The notes beneath the pieces are model-generated. The model made no database searches. It was given only the letters and a program-made list of their open reading frames with translations, and was not told the origin of the DNA. A DNA stretch of 64,000 nt from Candidatus Brocadia sp. (lineage in GTDB: Bacteria > Planctomycetota > Brocadiia > Brocadiales > Brocadiaceae): NCBI GenBank assembly GCA_021646415.1, contig SOEU01000004.1:62001-126000 (forward strand), read 5' to 3'. A program made the translations under genes and the position numbers. Shown piece after piece: positions 2,302 to 49,986 of the stretch (position 1 is the stretch's first letter; every line of letters begins with the position of its first letter).

Positions 2302-3027
2302 ATGAACAAATTTATGACACACGGTGGAAAAACTGCCCGTCATATTATACAAAAAGCCTTAGTCCAGAGTCGATATGAATTACTTGAACCTGAGGCTAAG
2401 GAATTCATTGAAACGTTTGGTATAAGCGCTACCAGGCATATCGTTACATCTTCACGTGCAGATGCAATTCAGGCCGCGACTTCTATCGGATATCCGGTTG
2501 TCCTCAAGATTGTTTCTCCTGATATTAGCCATAAAACCGATGTCGGTGGTGTTAAGCTTGGTATAAAGGATGATGAAGGTGTCAGGAGTGCGTACGACGA
2601 AATTATAAGAAGTGTAAAAAAGAGGCAGCCGGACGCACGGATTGATGGGATTCTTGTTCAGGAAATGGCAACACCTTCCACGGAAGTTATTATAGGCGGG
2701 CTTCGGGACCCTCAATTTGGCCCGGCCGTGATGTTCGGGTTGGGGGGTATCTTTGTTGAGATTTTTAAAGACGTATCTTTTCGTATCGCCCCGGTGGAGG
2801 AATATGAGGCATTGAATATGATTCACGATATAAAGGGGGCAAAGGTATTCAAGGGTTTTAGGGGTAGGGAAGCAGCGGATATTTCCGCATTGACACAAAC
2901 CATTGTACGGGTATCAGACATCATGGTTTCCATAGAAGAAATTAAGGAGATAGACCTGAACCCAGTCCTTGTTTATCCGAAAGGCTTGAAGGCTGTTGAT
3001 GCGAGGATTATTTTATGTCAATTGTAG
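2302..3027 (+). CDS. ADP-forming acetyl-CoA synthetase beta subunit (ATP-grasp)
   Basis: The 241-residue protein matches the ATP-grasp beta subunit of ADP-forming acyl-CoA synthetases, which couple acyl-CoA cleavage to ATP formation through a phosphohistidine relay. Diagnostic blocks are GYPVVLKIVSPDISHKTDVGG, VQEM, GPAVMFGLGG and EIKEIDLNPV. The ATG at 2302 is chosen because it is preceded by an AAGGA-type site and the similarity begins right after it; the open frame continues 27 codons upstream without support. The alpha (CoA-binding and ligase) subunit is not adjacent, so this is either a split enzyme with a distant partner or a stand-alone protein. A strong promoter-like sequence precedes it and hflX follows 13 bases later. 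Confidence 0.88.
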   Translation: MNKFMTHGGKTARHIIQKALVQSRYELLEPEAKEFIETFGISATRHIVTSSRADAIQAATSIGYPVVLKIVSPDISHKTDVGGVKLGIKDDEGVRSAYDEIIRSVKKRQPDARIDGILVQEMATPSTEVIIGGLRDPQFGPAVMFGLGGIFVEIFKDVSFRIAPVEEYEALNMIHDIKGAKVFKGFRGREAADISALTQTIVRVSDIMVSIEEIKEIDLNPVLVYPKGLKAVDARIILCQL

Positions 3028-3040
3028 AATAGAGGTATAA

Positions 3041-4339
3041 GTGAAATTAAAAGACACTGCATTTACGGTAAGGGCGGAACGCGCCATTCTTTTCCGGGTT
3101 ATGCTGTCTGGAGATCATAGTGATAATGAAGCACCCCTGGAAGAACTTCGGCGATTGGCAAAAACTGCAGGTGCAAACGTTGTCCACACAGTAGTTCAAA
3201 AAAGACCGAACATCGATCCCGTATATTATGTTGGGAAGGGAAAAGCAGCCGAATTATCCGGGATTTCAAAGGATTTAAGTGCCGATGTGCTTATTTGTGA
3301 CGACGACCTTACTCCGGCGCAGGTCAGAAATCTTGAAAGAGTTATCGAGAAAAAAGTAATTGACAGGAGTGAATTAATCCTGGACATATTTGCTACCCGT
3401 GCAAAAACATTTCAGGCAAAACTTCAGGTAGAATTAGCTCAATTAGAGTATACTCGACCCAGATTAAAGAGGCTGTGGACACACCTCTCCAGGATTGAGG
3501 GTGGTATTGGAACAAGGGGACCCGGTGAAAAACAATTGGAAGTTGATAAGCGCATTGTGTTAAAAAAAATCCATGACCTGAGAAAAAAATTACATGAGAT
3601 CGAAAAGAGGCAGGAACGGCTAGTCGCCTCGCGGAAGGAATTTTTCACGGTATCCATCGTGGGATACACCAATGCCGGGAAATCGACATTAATGAATGCC
3701 CTGACGGAGATTGATACCTTTGTAGAGGATAAACTCTTTGCAACACTTGACACAAAGACAAGTATCTGTAAATTGGAAAACGGAAGAAAGGTTTTAGTAA
3801 GTGATACGGTGGGTTTTATCCAGAAGCTACCTCACCACCTGGTTTCGTCCTTTAAAGCAACACTTGAGGAGGCCAGGCACGCCGACCTTCTGCTCCATGT
3901 TGCAGATATGAGTTCCCCTCTGGTTCACAAACAAATCGGCGCGGTGAATGCCGTGTTAAAGGAATTAGGATGCGACAATAAACCGACGATCATGGTATTT
4001 AACAAAATAGATGCCATAAAAGACGAGTCTGCTGTTCCTTTGCTCCAGAGTTATTACAGGGATTGCGTTATGATCTCTGCGAGGACACACCAGGGGATAG
4101 AAGAACTGAAACGAAAGATCAGGGAAATACTGGAAAAAAATTTTATGGAAGTGGAGCTTACCTGCAGCCCAGCCAATGGGAAGTTAATTGCATATCTTCA
4201 TGAACATGCACATACTTTAAGTAGCCGTTTTGAAGAACAGCGGGTAACATTCCGATTGCTTATAGAAGACAAGCTTATTCAGAAATTACGGGTGCTGGAT
4301 GATGACATACAGATAAAAGAAGCTGTTGTGGCGAATTAA
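3041..4339 (+). CDS. hflX: GTPase HflX
   Basis: HflX binds the 50S ribosomal subunit and splits stalled or stressed ribosomes at the cost of GTP. The 432-residue protein has the HflX N-terminal domain (about 20-190, with the glycine-rich IGTRGPGEKQLE linker), then an Obg-like G domain: G1 GYTNAGKST near 208-216, G3 DTVGF near 255, and G4 NKID near 320. Translation starts at GTG 3041 behind AGAGG. It lies 13 bases after the acyl-CoA synthetase gene and is probably cotranscribed with it, although no functional link is evident. Confidence 0.95.
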   Translation: MKLKDTAFTVRAERAILFRVMLSGDHSDNEAPLEELRRLAKTAGANVVHTVVQKRPNIDPVYYVGKGKAAELSGISKDLSADVLICDDDLTPAQVRNLERVIEKKVIDRSELILDIFATRAKTFQAKLQVELAQLEYTRPRLKRLWTHLSRIEGGIGTRGPGEKQLEVDKRIVLKKIHDLRKKLHEIEKRQERLVASRKEFFTVSIVGYTNAGKSTLMNALTEIDTFVEDKLFATLDTKTSICKLENGRKVLVSDTVGFIQKLPHHLVSSFKATLEEARHADLLLHVADMSSPLVHKQIGAVNAVLKELGCDNKPTIMVFNKIDAIKDESAVPLLQSYYRDCVMISARTHQGIEELKRKIREILEKNFMEVELTCSPANGKLIAYLHEHAHTLSSRFEEQRVTFRLLIEDKLIQKLRVLDDDIQIKEAVVAN

Positions 4340-4361
4340 GTCTTTATGACCACTTCATGCT

Positions 4362-4384
4362 GGTTCAGGCTTGTAGCCTGAATC
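4362..4384. terminator. Hairpin between convergent hflX and lgt
   Basis: GGTTCAGGC and GCCTGAATC pair around a 5-base loop, with one wobble. No T-run follows. The rest of the 260-base convergent gap holds two weaker dyads (4431-4467 and 4476-4493) and no gene. The hairpin probably ends transcription of hflX, but a dispersed repeat is also possible. Confidence 0.4.
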
Positions 4385-4599
4385 AAAACATTTTAGAGGT
4401 ATCCAAAAAGGTCCCGTGCAACTTAATTTTAGCCCTAATCAAAACGTTGAAAAAGCTGTCAAGGGCTGATGAATTGGCATGGGTTTATGCCATAGCGCGG
4501 TTCAAAACCATGGTCTGGTTCAAAATAAACGGATAGCACTCATCCAGGGAAAATCACCCTCCCGGTTTCTTCCTTTGATGGGGGATTAACTTAATGACA

Positions 4600-43164: not shown

Positions 43165-43935
43165 CTAACCCTTATAGCGTATAAACATATCCTGAAGTTT
43201 CCTGAAGATTTCTTTAACAAACGTGGTATTATTAAAGAAAATACCCCAGGGGAATTGCCCGTCCTCAAAAGATTCAGCAAAGTTCCCCCCTCGATCATGA
43301 CCAGAAATCGGTGCTGCTTTCTCTACCAGATGATTTACCTGGTCATGCCGTAACATCAAAGTTGGCACACGCTCTTCTACCCTGGTAATCATCTCAAGAG
43401 GGATAATTCCATTCCACTCCTTCGAAAAACCCTCCACAATATACGCACTGCCATGCTTATCAAATAATTGATACCATACATGGGCAAAGGCAATCGAAGT
43501 ATTTCTGTCTACCACCCAGCCCCATACCAGATCACCATTAATGTCCAGTCCGGAGAGATTTGAAAAGAACAAGAAGATCGAATCTTCACAATCGCCCTTT
43601 TTGCTTTGACGTGTTTCTCCCGGTGTCTGCCAGTAGTCTGTCTTCGGTGGTTCGGCCCGGTAGTCAATATCAAAGGCTATTTCCCTATACGCATCATAAA
43701 TTTGTTCGCCATTCTTGAAGGTGTTGATACACCATTCTTTGTAAAATAGATTGTCAGGTATGCAGCTCCCATCCGGTGAATGAGCCGTCAATGGCTTTTC
43801 TGCCCAAATATCTTCAACCGGTTTATAGCCCCTTCCCGTCAGAAATAAATCGGCGTACGAAACATCCGCATATGTTTCCACGCAACACATCCCCGATAAA
43901 ACTAAGGTGGTTACAATCATTACCAAATGTTTCAT
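43165..43935 (-). CDS. Exported transglutaminase-like cysteine protease
   Basis: A 256-residue protein with a signal peptide (hydrophobic residues about 5-20, then VETYADVSYA). The transglutaminase-like triad region is visible: KKGDCEDSIFLF (Cys), FAHVWYQLF (His) and YIVEGFSKEWNG (acidic). This fits bacterial transglutaminase-like cysteine peptidases that act in the periplasm. ATG 43935 gives the better signal peptide; the frame starts six codons earlier. The target is unknown. Confidence 0.75.
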   Translation of the reverse strand: MKHLVMIVTTLVLSGMCCVETYADVSYADLFLTGRGYKPVEDIWAEKPLTAHSPDGSCIPDNLFYKEWCINTFKNGEQIYDAYREIAFDIDYRAEPPKTDYWQTPGETRQSKKGDCEDSIFLFFSNLSGLDINGDLVWGWVVDRNTSIAFAHVWYQLFDKHGSAYIVEGFSKEWNGIIPLEMITRVEERVPTLMLRHDQVNHLVEKAAPISGHDRGGNFAESFEDGQFPWGIFFNNTTFVKEIFRKLQDMFIRYKG

Positions 43936-44185
43936 AAATGGCTTCAATTGCAACTCCTCTCATTTCGGATTTGGGATTGCGGATTTCTGATTTTCGCCTG
44001 TTCCGCAACCCACATACTATAATCAACAAAATCAAAACTTAATTGCGCTTCTCCTTTATAATACGATAAATACTTCGTTTTCAACAAGTTTCTGCACTAT
44101 ACAGGAGGGTGAACTTAATTTCGTCTTACTTCATCTCCCCTTACAAAGGGGAAAAGAGGATCAATTTGGTTGCAGTTGCACGGCA

Positions 44186-44950
44186 CTATGAAGTTTTCAG
44201 TACCGTAAGATCGTGCTTTACCTTTGTATTTCCACGTTCTTCAATGGTCTTTATAAGTTTTTCTTTTGTCGTCCATCCCCGATAAAAACTAACCATCACT
44301 TCATTGGTAACAATATCGACATCCGAACCGGACACTCCAAATATACCCAAAAGATATGCCCGCACGTCGTGGGCATCAACCTCAGCCATACCCTCTGTCT
44401 CAAAGGTAATTGCGTCTATGGGCACTATAGCCTTAAATCCATTATCTTCAAGGGTTTTGACTATCTTTCTGGCAAATCGGATCCAGCCTTCATAATAGTT
44501 GATAGTGACGTCCTTTGTATTAAGGTCGATATTGGCAGTTGTAACTCCCGGTAGTTCATCCAGGCACTCCCTTAATCTTTTCACATCTGATTCATGTATG
44601 AAATTATCAATTTTAAAAGTAAGGTAATCGGGTAACGATGCATCATAGCCTGCATCTTTAATGGCTTTTATAATCTGCTCCTCTGTGATTGCTCCCGGGC
44701 AGAGGGTAGAAATACATATCTCAGTTTTATCAGGGCTGATATTGGCGCACTTGATCACCTCGTTCTTTTGTAAAGTGGCTTTTAGTTGAATGGCCTCTGC
44801 AAGATCATTTACTCCCCGTAATTTTAAAGTAATGCCATCAGGCGAGGAACCACCGCCGCCGCATGCAGAGAGTTCATTCGAAATCGTATTGAACGATACG
44901 AAACTTACGAATAATAACAATATCGTCATGTATTTACATGAAATCTTCAT
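44186..44950 (-). CDS. Exported protein with three HMA-like domains lacking CxxC
   Basis: A 254-residue protein with an N-terminal signal segment (about 5-25). Then come three repeats of about 65 residues with the beta-alpha-beta-beta-alpha-beta pattern of heavy-metal-associated domains: ITLKLRGVNDLAEAIQLKAT..., LTFKIDNFIHESDVKRLREC... and ITFETEGMAEVDAHDVRAYL.... In true HMA domains a CxxC loop binds the metal; here each loop lacks it. The start of repeat 1 has a GGGGSS linker following a cysteine. It may bind something other than soft metal ions. A GGAAGG site fixes ATG 44950. Confidence 0.7.
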   Translation of the reverse strand: MKISCKYMTILLLFVSFVSFNTISNELSACGGGGSSPDGITLKLRGVNDLAEAIQLKATLQKNEVIKCANISPDKTEICISTLCPGAITEEQIIKAIKDAGYDASLPDYLTFKIDNFIHESDVKRLRECLDELPGVTTANIDLNTKDVTINYYEGWIRFARKIVKTLEDNGFKAIVPIDAITFETEGMAEVDAHDVRAYLLGIFGVSGSDVDIVTNEVMVSFYRGWTTKEKLIKTIEERGNTKVKHDLTVLKTS

Positions 44951-44999
44951 TTGTATTCCTTCCTGAAGATAGTATTTTATCAAAATAGTTTTTAAATAA

Positions 45000-45042: not shown

Positions 45043-46068
45043 TTACAAAGCCTTCAGGAACTCCACCAAATCCTGCAAATCTTGAGCACTCAGGTGTGAC
45101 GTCCTTCCATGCATGTCCTTATCATTTACCGTGTTGTTGATCGTGTCAATCAACGTCCTGGCACTCCCGTCATGGAAATACGTACCTGAAGCATAGATGT
45201 CCCTCAGGGTCGGTGTATCAAACTCCTTCACCAGGTCTAACCCAATGATCGGCGTATCACTCTCCTCTCCATAGGGATCCTCACCGGCATTCAATGCCTG
45301 CATGTTAAATACCTTACCCGGTGTTGACCTGAAACCCTTCACTCCTACACGACCGGTTCCCACATCATGGGTCTGTGCATCGCTAAATAAGGCCTTCGGA
45401 TCCATTGCATCACCAGGATGACACTCCGCACACCCTACATTCGGATCATTAAATAACTTCTCACCCCTCTTTGCAGCCTCTGTCAAACTGCCATCCGCAT
45501 TCCTGAACGGACTTCCCGTAAACTCCAATGCCCGAATGTAACAAATCAAAGACTCCAGCCTCTCCGGTGAAAAGTTCTCACTCCTGAACACAAACCCAGG
45601 GTCTCTTCCGCACACCCTGTCAAGAGAACTTGTTGCACCTACGATTTCATCCGGATGACCCGTAAACCCTTCATGCCTGAATGGAGGCAAATACCTTCCG
45701 CCACGGATATACTTTACATTCTTCCAGCTTCCCCATCCTTCATCTCCAAGGTCCCAGATCAAACCGGTCGTCTGTCCCCTCTCGTAATGGCAGCTGGCGC
45801 ATGCATACTCACCCTGTAACCCCCATGATGCGTCATTGAATATGAACTGCCCGTACCTCACCAACTCACTCTTAAAGGGTGAGTGTTTTACCCGGTAATG
45901 TACCTCAGGCACCGTCAATGGCTCGCCCCTGGGAAGAGGCTCCCACTCCGGCCCCGTCTGGATCGTTGCTATCACCTGTGGCGTACCCGCCATCAACTCT
46001 CCAGTTGTCACCACCCCTGCTATACCAAGGACTGCGACCAAGCCTAATTTTAAAGTCTTTGTAAACAT
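45043..46068 (-). CDS. Dihaem cytochrome c peroxidase/MauG-like protein
   Basis: A 341-residue periplasmic protein with a signal peptide (cleavage near MAGT, about residue 27) and two c-haem sites, CASCH at 90-94 and CAECH at 213-217, in the order of bacterial cytochrome c peroxidases and MauG. SFDTPTLRDIYASGTYFHDGSA-type sequence near the end is a family block (here EFDTPTLRDIYASGTYFHDG). Two extra cysteines (153, 176) are unusual. The codon use is regular, suggesting strong expression. It follows a 23-residue ORF whose stop is one base before its ATG, and a sigma-54-type promoter upstream. Confidence 0.88.
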   Translation of the reverse strand: MFTKTLKLGLVAVLGIAGVVTTGELMAGTPQVIATIQTGPEWEPLPRGEPLTVPEVHYRVKHSPFKSELVRYGQFIFNDASWGLQGEYACASCHYERGQTTGLIWDLGDEGWGSWKNVKYIRGGRYLPPFRHEGFTGHPDEIVGATSSLDRVCGRDPGFVFRSENFSPERLESLICYIRALEFTGSPFRNADGSLTEAAKRGEKLFNDPNVGCAECHPGDAMDPKALFSDAQTHDVGTGRVGVKGFRSTPGKVFNMQALNAGEDPYGEESDTPIIGLDLVKEFDTPTLRDIYASGTYFHDGSARTLIDTINNTVNDKDMHGRTSHLSAQDLQDLVEFLKAL

Positions 46069-46069
46069 G

Positions 46070-46141
46070 TTAAACCTCCTTCACTACATAAAAAATTGCA
46101 AATCCAAGAATGAGACCGACAAAAACAGTAAAACACATCAT
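46070..46141 (-). CDS. 23-residue membrane peptide ORF upstream of the cytochrome
   Basis: Reads MMCFTVFVGLILGFAIF and six more residues ending in KEV: one hydrophobic helix of about 17 residues. It has a strong AAGGAGG ribosome site 7 bases before the ATG, and its stop codon (46070-46072) is one base before the cytochrome ATG, so the two are tightly coupled; the cytochrome ribosome site lies inside the end of this ORF. It is too short for normal gene calling. It could be a small subunit that anchors the cytochrome or a leader peptide. Confidence 0.65.
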   Translation of the reverse strand: MMCFTVFVGLILGFAIFYVVKEV

Positions 46142-46270
46142 AATTTATCCTCCTTCCGTTATTTCACTTGCTAAACAGTTCCTCCGGAATCACCTCCTTT
46201 CATTCGGGTTCAATTTCCTTTCATTTCCCCTATATTCTCTGTCGTAGGTGAATATCTGTCCTATAGAATT

Positions 46271-46286
46271 AGCAATGAGAGTGCCA
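46271..46286 (-). promoter_or_regulatory. Sigma-54 promoter TGGCACTCTCATTGCT
   Basis: Read on the minus strand, TGGCAC-N5-TTGCT matches the -24/-12 consensus with the right GG and GC spacing. It lies about 130 bases upstream of the small ORF and dihaem cytochrome. RpoN promoters need an NtrC-type activator, and the gene for one is next in line upstream. Confidence 0.75.
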
Positions 46287-46630: not shown

Positions 46631-48040
46631 CTATGCAGATGTCTGTTCAGTGGCGGGGATATTGGTTTTTGTTATGTTATACTTAACGAGCTTATTTTGA
46701 AGCGTAGTACGAGGTATCCGCAATATTTCTGACATGCGTACCTGGTTACCGTTTGTCTTCTGATAAGCCCACAAAAGAAGCTTTCGTTCAGCTTCGCTAA
46801 GGGTTTCTTGCAGGTCCAAGGAGTCAATCGTAGAAAGTTCAATAGGGAATATACCAGAAGAGGTCTCTCCCTGCGTTAAATTTTGTGGGAGATTTTTTGG
46901 GAGAATTGCACCAGATGTACAAAACGCTACGGCATGTTCCACAGCATTTTCTAATTCGCGGATGTTTCCAGGCCAATTATACGATAACAGCAAATGAAGC
47001 GCTTCCTGAGAGATTGAATTAATCACGACACGTTGCTGTGCGGCATATTTTTTCATAAAGTAATTTACCAGGAGTGGTATATCTTCTTTCCTTTCCCTTA
47101 AGGGTGGAAGATGAAGAGTGACTACATGAAGTCGATAATACAAGTCTTCACGAAATCGCCCTTCCTGGACAAGCTTTTTAAGGTCTTTTTTGGTTGCGCA
47201 AATAACTCGGACATTGACGGGAATCGTTTCCTCACCTCCAACGCGTTCAAATTCCCGTTCCTGAAGGACTCGCAGGAGTTTCACTTGCATTTCTAATGGA
47301 ATATCATCTACGTCATCGAGAAATATCGTGCCTCCATCGGCGAGTTCAAAACGGCCCCGCCTCGTTTTTATCGCACCGGTAAAAGAACCCTTCTCATGTC
47401 CAAAGAGTTCGCTTTCCAGGATTTCCTTGTTTAAAGAGGCGCAACTGAGCTTTATAAAAGGCCCATTCCGCCGGTTACTATTGTAATGAATAGCCCCAGC
47501 TGTAAGTTCCTTTCCGGTGCCGCTCTCTCCCTGAATAAGGATTGTGGTATCACGATTGGATACCGTGTTTATAATTTCAAACACGTGCTTCATAGCATCG
47601 CTGCTTCCTATCATATTGTCGTAACCATATCGGCTCATAACCTGTTGTTTCAGTAAAATGTTTTCTGCAACCGTGTCTTTGTGTTTGAGTGCCTTCTGGA
47701 GTTTAATCATTAATTCTTCCAGGGAAAAGGGCTTCGTTACGTAATCATACGCCCCTGCTTTCATTGCTGTAACAGCACTTTCAATGGAACCATAAGCAGT
47801 CATGATGATAACAACCATATCGGGTGATGATTTTTTTATCTCCTTCAAAAAATCTATCCCATCCATCTTGGGCAGGCGCAAATCTGTTATTACCGCATCG
47901 AAGTTTGTTGATTGCAGTACCCTGAGACCTTCAGTGGCATTTGACAAACAAGTGACGGCATATCCCTCTTTCACTAATTTATCTTCAAGGGATACACGCA
48001 TAAGTTTTTCATCATCAACAATTAGTATTTTGCTTTTCAT
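46631..48040 (-). CDS. NtrC-family sigma-54-dependent response regulator
   Basis: A 469-residue activator in three parts: receiver domain (1-120, phospho-acceptor Asp53 in [12 protein letters not shown], Lys in YVTKPFS), AAA+ domain (about 140-375, Walker [29 protein letters not shown] with the sigma-54-contact GAFTGA, Walker [10 protein letters not shown]) and a Fis-type helix-turn-helix at the end. The start at 48040 is chosen because the receiver begins there; an in-frame extension upstream overlaps the kinase gene. It lies 11 bases after the kinase gene, so the two form a pair. Confidence 0.95.
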
Positions 48041-48051
48041 TTGAAAAATGT

Positions 48052-49986
48052 TCAGTCTCCTCTGCGACTGGGAAGACATACCTGAAAGGTAGTCCCTTCC
48101 CCCACATTACTTCCTATACGGATTTCCCCGCGGTGGTCCTCGATAATCCTCTTCGATATTGCCAATCCCATCCCCAGCCCTTTTTCACCTTCTTTGTTTT
48201 TCGTGGTAAAAAAAGGTTCGAAAATCTTATCCATAATTTCTCCCTGGATGCCGCAGCCGGTGTCACTAATACAAACGGCAACACACCCTTCATGTCTCTT
48301 GCAAGTATCTGTCTTTATGGTCAGTGTTCCCCCGTCTGGCATACTCTCAATGGCATTAACCAGCATATTGATGAATACCATAGATACGTGGTCCACATCT
48401 ATAAAAACCGGTGGAAGGGATTCGTTGAGTTCTTTCTGAATACGCACAAGGCTGGGTTCAATCCTGTGCTCTACAAACTCGAGAGAATTATTTATGACCA
48501 CGTTAATATTGTTTTCAGAAAAGCGCAGTGTATAGGGTCGGGAAAATGTTAAAAGGCGTTTTACAATCAATTCCACCCGCTTTAGTCCTTCCAGCATAAG
48601 AGTGGCGTATTTCTTCGTTTGCGGGACATTTTCCGGTTCGTGTTCAATCATGCTGGCAAAGTTCTGCAAACCACCCAATGGGTTATTGATTTCATGGGCC
48701 ACCTCGGCTGCAAGCTCTCCTACCGCAGCGAGGCGTTCAGCGCGCAACAACTGTGCCGTTCGTTCCTCTACCTTTTGTTCCAGATTCGAATACGACTCTT
48801 TCAGTTTTGTGGCCATGTGATTAAATTCCCTGGCAAGAAGACCCACCTCATTTTCCGATAGAATCGATATACGATGGTCAAGATTTCCTGAACCAATAGC
48901 CTTTGCCCCCTGCGCCAGTTGTAATATAGGCTGTGTGATCCGGTTGGTGAATGAAATGCCAAGAGCAATGACCACGGTAATACAAACAAAGATCAGCACG
49001 ATAACACGGTTTTTCAGTTTTTCAACCGCGGCAAATGCCTCTGTTAAATCCTGTTTTGCCACAAGTCCCCAATTGAGAACGGGGATGTGCCGGTAGGCAG
49101 AAAGTACGGGAACATTCCTGTAGTCTACAGATTCTTTAATCCCTTCTTCGCCACCGGAGCTTAACACCGAAGGGATATCCAGGGTAGAATGGATGGGGCT
49201 GGTAAATTGCAAGGCCGCTCCCTCCTTATGACGAAGGTCATTTAAATAGACAATGGTATTCCCTTCTCTCCTCACCAGGAGTGTTTCTCCTGTTGTTCCC
49301 ATTCCTGGCCAGTTGCGAATCACCGGTTCAACGCTGTTTTTCACATTAACATCCAATAATATGGCGCCAATGATAATGTCGCTGCTTTCCAGGGTAATGG
49401 TATCTGTCATGCAAACCGGGCAAAAATACGTCATACAATTCTGGTCGGTCAGTTCAGAGGTATGGATATCCTTCACTGCTACCTCTTTTTCCCCCAGGAT
49501 ATCTATGTAACTGCTAAATGAATCCAGGGTTTTACCCACGATCCCGGGGTATGTGGATATAACCACCTCCCCATTTGCGCCGTCTATTATAGAGATAACG
49601 TTGTAATGTTTATAAAACTGCTTCAGGACATGAAGATTGTCTAAAATTCGTTCGTAATTTATCCGGCCGGCTTCTGATTTTCTCAACTCATCGATACTTT
49701 CAAATCTTCTCCTCTGTTGTAAAAGACTTGTTGCTGCCGCAGCAAGCACCTTGTTGCGGGCAATTACCGAGGTATCTGTCAACCGCTCTTCCAGCCAATT
49801 GTTCAGCTCGCTTTTTTTCAGATCAGCAATGGAGGTCAATTGTTCGATCATCCGCTGTTCAATGGCGTTCTTACTACTGTAATATTCCACGACACAAACA
49901 AACAATAATGGAACAGTGGTTAAAAGACAGATATAAGAGATGAGTTGTATCTTAATACTTTTGAAGATGTTTCTGTAGTAATTCAT
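48052..49986 (-). CDS. Membrane sensor histidine kinase
   Basis: A 644-residue kinase. Membrane helix 1 (about 10-30), a large periplasmic region (about 31-325, two-lobed sensor type), helix 2 (about 330-350), HAMP domain (about 351-405), a coiled coil (SNLEQKVEERTAQLLRAERL), HisKA with the phospho-His in EVAHEINNPLGGLQNF, and a HATPase domain (N-box INMLVNAIESMPDG, DTGCGI, GLGMGLAISKRIIEDH). It is the partner of the NtrC-type regulator. The signal is unknown; a redox or nitrogen signal would fit the cytochrome it probably controls. Confidence 0.95.
   Translation of the reverse strand: MNYYRNIFKSIKIQLISYICLLTTVPLLFVCVVEYYSSKNAIEQRMIEQLTSIADLKKSELNNWLEERLTDTSVIARNKVLAAAATSLLQQRRRFESIDELRKSEAGRINYERILDNLHVLKQFYKHYNVISIIDGANGEVVISTYPGIVGKTLDSFSSYIDILGEKEVAVKDIHTSELTDQNCMTYFCPVCMTDTITLESSDIIIGAILLDVNVKNSVEPVIRNWPGMGTTGETLLVRREGNTIVYLNDLRHKEGAALQFTSPIHSTLDIPSVLSSGGEEGIKESVDYRNVPVLSAYRHIPVLNWGLVAKQDLTEAFAAVEKLKNRVIVLIFVCITVVIALGISFTNRITQPILQLAQGAKAIGSGNLDHRISILSENEVGLLAREFNHMATKLKESYSNLEQKVEERTAQLLRAERLAAVGELAAEVAHEINNPLGGLQNFASMIEHEPENVPQTKKYATLMLEGLKRVELIVKRLLTFSRPYTLRFSENNINVVINNSLEFVEHRIEPSLVRIQKELNESLPPVFIDVDHVSMVFINMLVNAIESMPDGGTLTIKTDTCKRHEGCVAVCISDTGCGIQGEIMDKIFEPFFTTKNKEGEKGLGMGLAISKRIIEDHRGEIRIGSNVGEGTTFQVCLPSRRGD

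Follow-up and report, generated by a model that had tools for sequence, protein, structure and literature searches.

The window analysed here, a stretch of 64,000 nucleotides of a Candidatus Brocadia sp. genome (contig SOEU01000004.1), carries a histidine kinase and its response regulator, a leader region with a promoter-like site, a 23-codon reading frame, and a cytochrome gene which that frame almost abuts. The features of the locus, all on the minus strand and numbered by position in the window, are as follows.

48052..49986, minus strand: histidine kinase, the regulator's partner (dCache, HAMP, HisKA and HATPase domains; Pfam)
46631..48079, likely start near 48040, minus strand: NtrC-type sigma-54-dependent response regulator (Pfam Sigma54_activat, Response_reg, HTH_8)
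46272..46286, minus strand: sigma-54 (-24/-12) promoter-like site TGGCACTCTCATTGC, from a composite-pattern search
46189..46201, minus strand: upstream extended Shine-Dalgarno sequence GAAAGGAGGTGAT, from the 16S 3' end complement
46149..46155, minus strand: mini-cistron ribosome site AAGGAGG, 7 nt before the ATG
46070..46141, minus strand: 23-codon mini-cistron MMCFTVFVGLILGFAIFYVVKEV, with one predicted membrane-spanning stretch, conserved in 6 genomes and subjected to a coding-constraint test
46075..46081, minus strand: hzsC ribosome site AAGGAGG, within the last mini-cistron codons (21-23)
45043..46068, minus strand: orphan hzsC, hydrazine synthase subunit gamma, 341 aa, two CXXCH motifs and a signal peptide (NCBIfam NF052341 and PDB 5c2v chain C)
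44186..44983, minus strand: exported protein with a heavy-metal-associated (HMA) domain, downstream of hzsC (Pfam HMA)

An orphan gene for hydrazine synthase gamma

The gene following the mini-cistron encodes hydrazine synthase gamma (HzsC). Its product scores 741 bits against NCBIfam NF052341, where the cut-off is 625, and 665 bits against chain C of PDB entry 5c2v over residues 28-341, colinear and gap-free. This identity marks the DNA as that of an anammox bacterium; the relatives retrieved from the genome collection were named anammox bacteria or Planctomycetota. The preliminary description of this DNA had linked the cytochrome to a peroxidase, which proved to be wrong: the protein clears the threshold of Pfam's broad domain CCP_MauG at 40 bits, and falls far under the NCBIfam peroxidase and MauG cut-offs while lying well over that for hydrazine synthase.

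Neither hzsB nor hzsA was found beside this hzsC in the window, nor beside its counterpart in the relative G006 (L128), whose complete hzsBCA operons lie at other loci (L126, L127). Their company is a trait of the usual operon and not of the HzsC family, and its absence is no bar to membership. The operon of the window's own genome is split by contig ends, one contig (C37) ending in hzsB and another (C26) in hzsC then hzsA. Elsewhere in the family, locus L090 of G025 (3001-4522) has the leader element described below and an hzsC without upstream hzsB, followed directly by hzsA, an order unique among the loci; because hzsA follows hzsC, this leader is not that of a true orphan. A decayed hzsBC was also encountered (L114, G024:C7:87447-92941), in which hzsC has several internal TGA or TAA codons and the hzsB leader keeps GAAAGGAGGTGGTTT.

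Within one genome, orphan and operon hzsC differ at 13-54 of about 1026 bases, 11-16 of these differences falling in the first 100 bases, the signal-peptide end. The sequences downstream of the two genes are unrelated, with the downstream context out of view in several relatives where a contig breaks inside hzsC. Protein identity of HzsC between genomes is 85-93% for most. As different genomes differ more than the copies within one, the within-genome copies appear homogenised, and orphan and operon hzsC appear to be held nearly identical through concerted evolution; such homogenisation points to ongoing gene conversion. Homogenisation with the exception of the signal-peptide end is seen for the hzsC of the window, for L086 compared with L108/L109, for L110 compared with L141/L142, and for L092 compared with L137/L138.

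Downstream, the HMA-domain gene is possibly co-transcribed with hzsC, and the whole or part of this neighbour also lies downstream in L106, L128, L088 and L093. A transglutaminase-like protein (43165-43953) is likewise encoded downstream of the orphan hzsC. Upstream, the protein tree of the NtrC-type regulators places those linked to orphan genes as a sister clade to those preceding hzsBCA operons.

Anatomy of the 23-codon frame

The mini-cistron begins with ATG and runs for 23 codons to a TAA located 1 base ahead of the hzsC ATG. Its coordinates, strand, length of 23 aa, AAGGAGG site, hydrophobic stretch and stop 1 base before the cytochrome's ATG were all confirmed as first described, as was the location of the cytochrome's ribosome site inside the frame. 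The layout is that of a two-cistron unit, comprising a ribosome site of its own, an embedded second site, and a stop 1 nt from the next start. The first of these sites is purine-rich in all six homologues of the frame, and an alignment of orphan hzsC leaders shows a purine-rich site at the position of the hzsC AAGGAGG. The C-terminus of the peptide, KEV followed by the stop, is the hzsC ribosome site AAGGAGGTTTAA translated in frame, and conservation of this end is therefore not independent evidence of coding. A small-xxx-Gly motif (G9..G13) is kept in all six homologues. The peptide had no match in Pfam or NCBIfam, searches in which so short a query is weakly tested.

Promoter-like site and extended Shine-Dalgarno sequence

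The orphan hzsC leader is roughly 190 nt long. In the promoter-like site, of the form TGGCAY-N5-TTGC, the GG and GC lie 10 nt apart, and the gene of an NtrC-type activator adjoins it. The extended Shine-Dalgarno sequence follows the sigma-54-like site by about 50-80 nt in orphan leaders and, in the window, GAAAGGAGGTGAT is perfectly complementary to 13 nt at the 3' end of this genome's own 16S rRNA. With G-U pairs allowed, a 16S-pairing stretch of 10-15 nt was found in 18 of 18 leaders standing directly before hzsC; shuffled controls gave a mean of 6-7 nt and reached at least 10 nt in 1.3% of shuffles. No start codon behind this element is conserved across the 18 leaders, and a short frame started by it was accordingly ruled out. 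In all six leaders bearing the mini-cistron, the element keeps a constant distance from the hzsC start (-130 to -132).

The combination of promoter and element appears to be confined to hydrazine synthase genes. A composite pattern searched over 33 family genomes was found at 12 places, namely nine orphan hzsC leaders and three hzsB leaders, and nowhere else in these genomes, while a reversed control returned 0. The strict pattern misses some leaders, in which the promoter site is altered or absent. The element also lies about 75-144 nt before hzsB in regulator-linked operons, in a weaker form in G020. One of two hzsBCA copies has its own kinase and NtrC-type regulator together with the extended Shine-Dalgarno leader (L124 1792-3783; L126; L136; L137; L142). 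The other stands behind a different regulator and a small protein and is without that leader element, which was not found before its hzsB. In the divergent L037 and L046, the element occurs about 90-150 nt upstream of hzsC behind a sigma-70-like promoter (TTGACA...TATACT, by eye); since that promoter closely precedes it, the element would sit near the mRNA 5' end.

The leader gave no Rfam match above threshold to a structured RNA family. Folding in silico revealed no special hiding of the hzsC ribosome site, which was unpaired at about 0.3-0.5 with or without the frame; a concealed hzsC site that would make coupling necessary is not supported by these folds. The folding also bears on the idea that the frame encodes a sensing leader peptide, the nascent chain of which would stall at the membrane, report export or haem status, and gate hzsC translation in a SecM-like manner. 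A hydrophobic leader directly ahead of an exported cytochrome, set in a constant leader geometry, would suit such a device. However, no alternative RNA structure hiding the hzsC site emerged from the folding, no arrest motif was recognised, and the peptide is very short. We regard this reading as highly improbable.

Conservation and loss of the frame

A search of 62 genomes of the order with a six-row profile of the mini-cistron homologues recovered exactly six of the 62 (G000, G006, G008, G011, G027 and G030), belonging to two genera and having one copy each at the same locus, with scores of 51-59 bits. The next best match reached 16 bits, and no mini-cistron was found elsewhere in the order by this search, the rest scoring at or below about 16 bits. 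All six homologues are 72 nt long, with zero indels and the start codon kept, and residues 8, 10, 11, 13, 14 and 17-20 are invariant. Among the 30 substitutions inferred in the six frames, 12 are synonymous, against a neutral expectation of about 7-8 (P about 0.04-0.08), and every pairwise dN/dS among the homologues is under 1, mostly 0.2-0.5. Under neutral simulation, all six frames stayed open in 48-68% of runs; for all six being both open and this hydrophobic, P was about 0.002-0.004. The frame is more than chance, and the figures above argue moderately for coding constraint.

The homologous stretch is frameshifted in L097, shortened in L091 and L110, deleted in L095, and interrupted by in-frame stops in the Jettenia loci L087 and L089. 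At least four close relatives in which the frame is broken or deleted keep the same hzsC and its ribosome site. The comparison of upstream regions of homologous cytochrome genes proposed at the outset thus yields a mixed outcome: the frame is conserved in six genomes and not conserved in about 10 others whose hzsC copy is of the same kind. When read on the regulator protein tree, which includes no regulator from L095, the frame is reconstructed as already present in the ancestor that the Brocadia-type genomes share with the g11 genomes, and as lost at least once within these two groups.

Such patchy retention is what might be expected of a fortuitous or decaying frame without function in an AT-rich leader, where the ribosome site would yield KEV and a stop, and a T-rich stretch the hydrophobic residues. 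The large share of neutral runs in which all six frames remain open is also compatible with this explanation. It accords poorly, however, with the excess of synonymous changes, the lack of any indel in 72 nt, the retention of start codon and ribosome site in two genera, and the low probability of frames both open and hydrophobic, and we consider it improbable. A relic of the hzsB signal peptide was rejected as well, a comparison by eye of hzsB N-termini and leaders with the mini-cistron having revealed no evident nucleotide similarity.

Membrane protein or coupling leader

The preliminary description had offered two roles for the frame, a small membrane subunit or a translation-coupling leader. 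That the frame should encode an obligatory membrane subunit is unlikely, since it has been lost through frameshift, stops or deletion in close relatives with the same hzsC. A less demanding version is a facultative small membrane protein present in some Brocadiaceae, for which coupling would merely set the ratio to HzsC. It might, for example, serve to dock or assemble the additional HzsC at the membrane of the anammoxosome, or act on the adjacent sensor kinase. The invariant residues and the small-xxx-Gly motif shared by all six homologues speak for such a protein, as do the strong hydrophobicity in six of six and the single copy always at this locus. Its loss from close relatives in which the same hzsC persists, the lack of a Pfam or NCBIfam match and a length of only 23 residues speak against it, and we entertain it as a tentative possibility. 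More doubtful still is the specific proposal that, in some anammox bacteria, an undescribed 23-residue membrane protein is produced in stoichiometric amounts with an extra HzsC under separate regulation, and places or assembles that HzsC at the anammoxosome membrane.

The coupling leader is the better supported of the two roles, coupling itself being deduced from the layout. We hold, with slightly more belief than doubt, that the 23-codon frame is a real and translated leader mini-cistron which delivers ribosomes to hzsC by termination and reinitiation. Ribosome delivery is favoured because the two-cistron geometry matches both an engineered layout and natural short frames to which ribosome delivery is ascribed. 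Under this proposal, the sigma-54 promoter would be activated by the adjacent kinase and NtrC-type pair. On the resulting transcript, the extended Shine-Dalgarno sequence may dock 30S subunits without initiation, so that the mRNA is protected or primed. Translation of the mini-cistron would then begin from its own site, and the ribosomes, terminating 1 base before hzsC, would cover the hzsC site and reinitiate on hzsC. The hydrophobic peptide would probably be inserted into a membrane, whether as a by-product of ribosome delivery or as an accessory.

Several observations are consistent with this coupling role. Firstly, the two-cistron geometry is ideal. Secondly, the frame is conserved across six genomes from two genera, and its changes lean towards synonymous ones. 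Thirdly, the spacing from element to hzsC is constant in the six genomes, and the frame appears ancestral on the regulator tree. Set against these, hzsC has a good ribosome site itself, which folding does not show to be specially hidden, and relatives manage without the frame. Furthermore, the test for coding reaches only moderate significance, and a pure coupling device needs no conserved amino-acid sequence.

Hydrazine synthase is the key anammox enzyme. Its genes rank with those expressed most strongly in anammox bacteria (PMC3482989), and we came across few published accounts of how they are controlled. Taken together, the orphan hzsC, its kinase and regulator, the sigma-54 promoter and the non-initiating extended Shine-Dalgarno element that the hzsBCA operon shares would define one regulatory unit. 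It also prompts one to ask why anammox bacteria retain a copy of a single subunit under separate control and homogenised in sequence. For its part, the mini-cistron would be a natural case of a coupling arrangement known otherwise chiefly from synthetic biology.

Comparison with known systems

Duplicated hzs clusters are already known in the literature. Identical hzs operon copies have been noted (PMC12758564), as has a sigma-54 regulator adjoining the Kuenenia hzs cluster (PMC12053348). In the openly searchable literature, as distinct from subscription sources, no account came to light of an orphan hzsC accompanied by its own regulator pair, nor of the leader shared with operons, nor of the mini-cistron.

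The mini-cistron and hzsC are arranged as in engineered bicistronic leaders (PMC5995908), and a review mentions short upstream frames that may serve only to supply ribosomes (PMC12548453). The resemblance to bicistronic design (BCD) and to natural two-cistron coupling lies in a first cistron that is short and has a ribosome site to itself, an embedded second site and an adjoining stop. Unlike BCD leaders, the mini-cistron is natural and found in anammox bacteria, its peptide is hydrophobic and apparently conserved, its coupling is deduced, and it stands behind an upstream extended Shine-Dalgarno sequence. That sequence, in turn, resembles the STAB-SD of Bacillus thuringiensis cry3A, which lies near -129, binds 30S subunits via the 16S 3' end without initiation, and protects the mRNA (PMC4113751). 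The element of the hzsC leader likewise lies at about -130, pairs strongly with 16S rRNA and has no initiation codon, although it belongs to a distant phylum and to sigma-54 leaders of hydrazine synthase genes, where stabilisation is presumed by analogy.

With respect to hzsBCA operons and 5C2V chain C, the orphan product is a full-length member of the same family, and its head of kinase, regulator, promoter and leader is like that of one operon copy. The orphan gene differs from these operons in lacking hzsB and hzsA, with the 23-codon frame standing in the place of hzsB. Kuenenia MBR1 has a partial extra copy of hzsBC (PMC5854607), which is similarly an additional and incomplete hydrazine synthase unit. 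There, however, hzsB is kept, whereas here hzsC stands alone with its own regulator pair.
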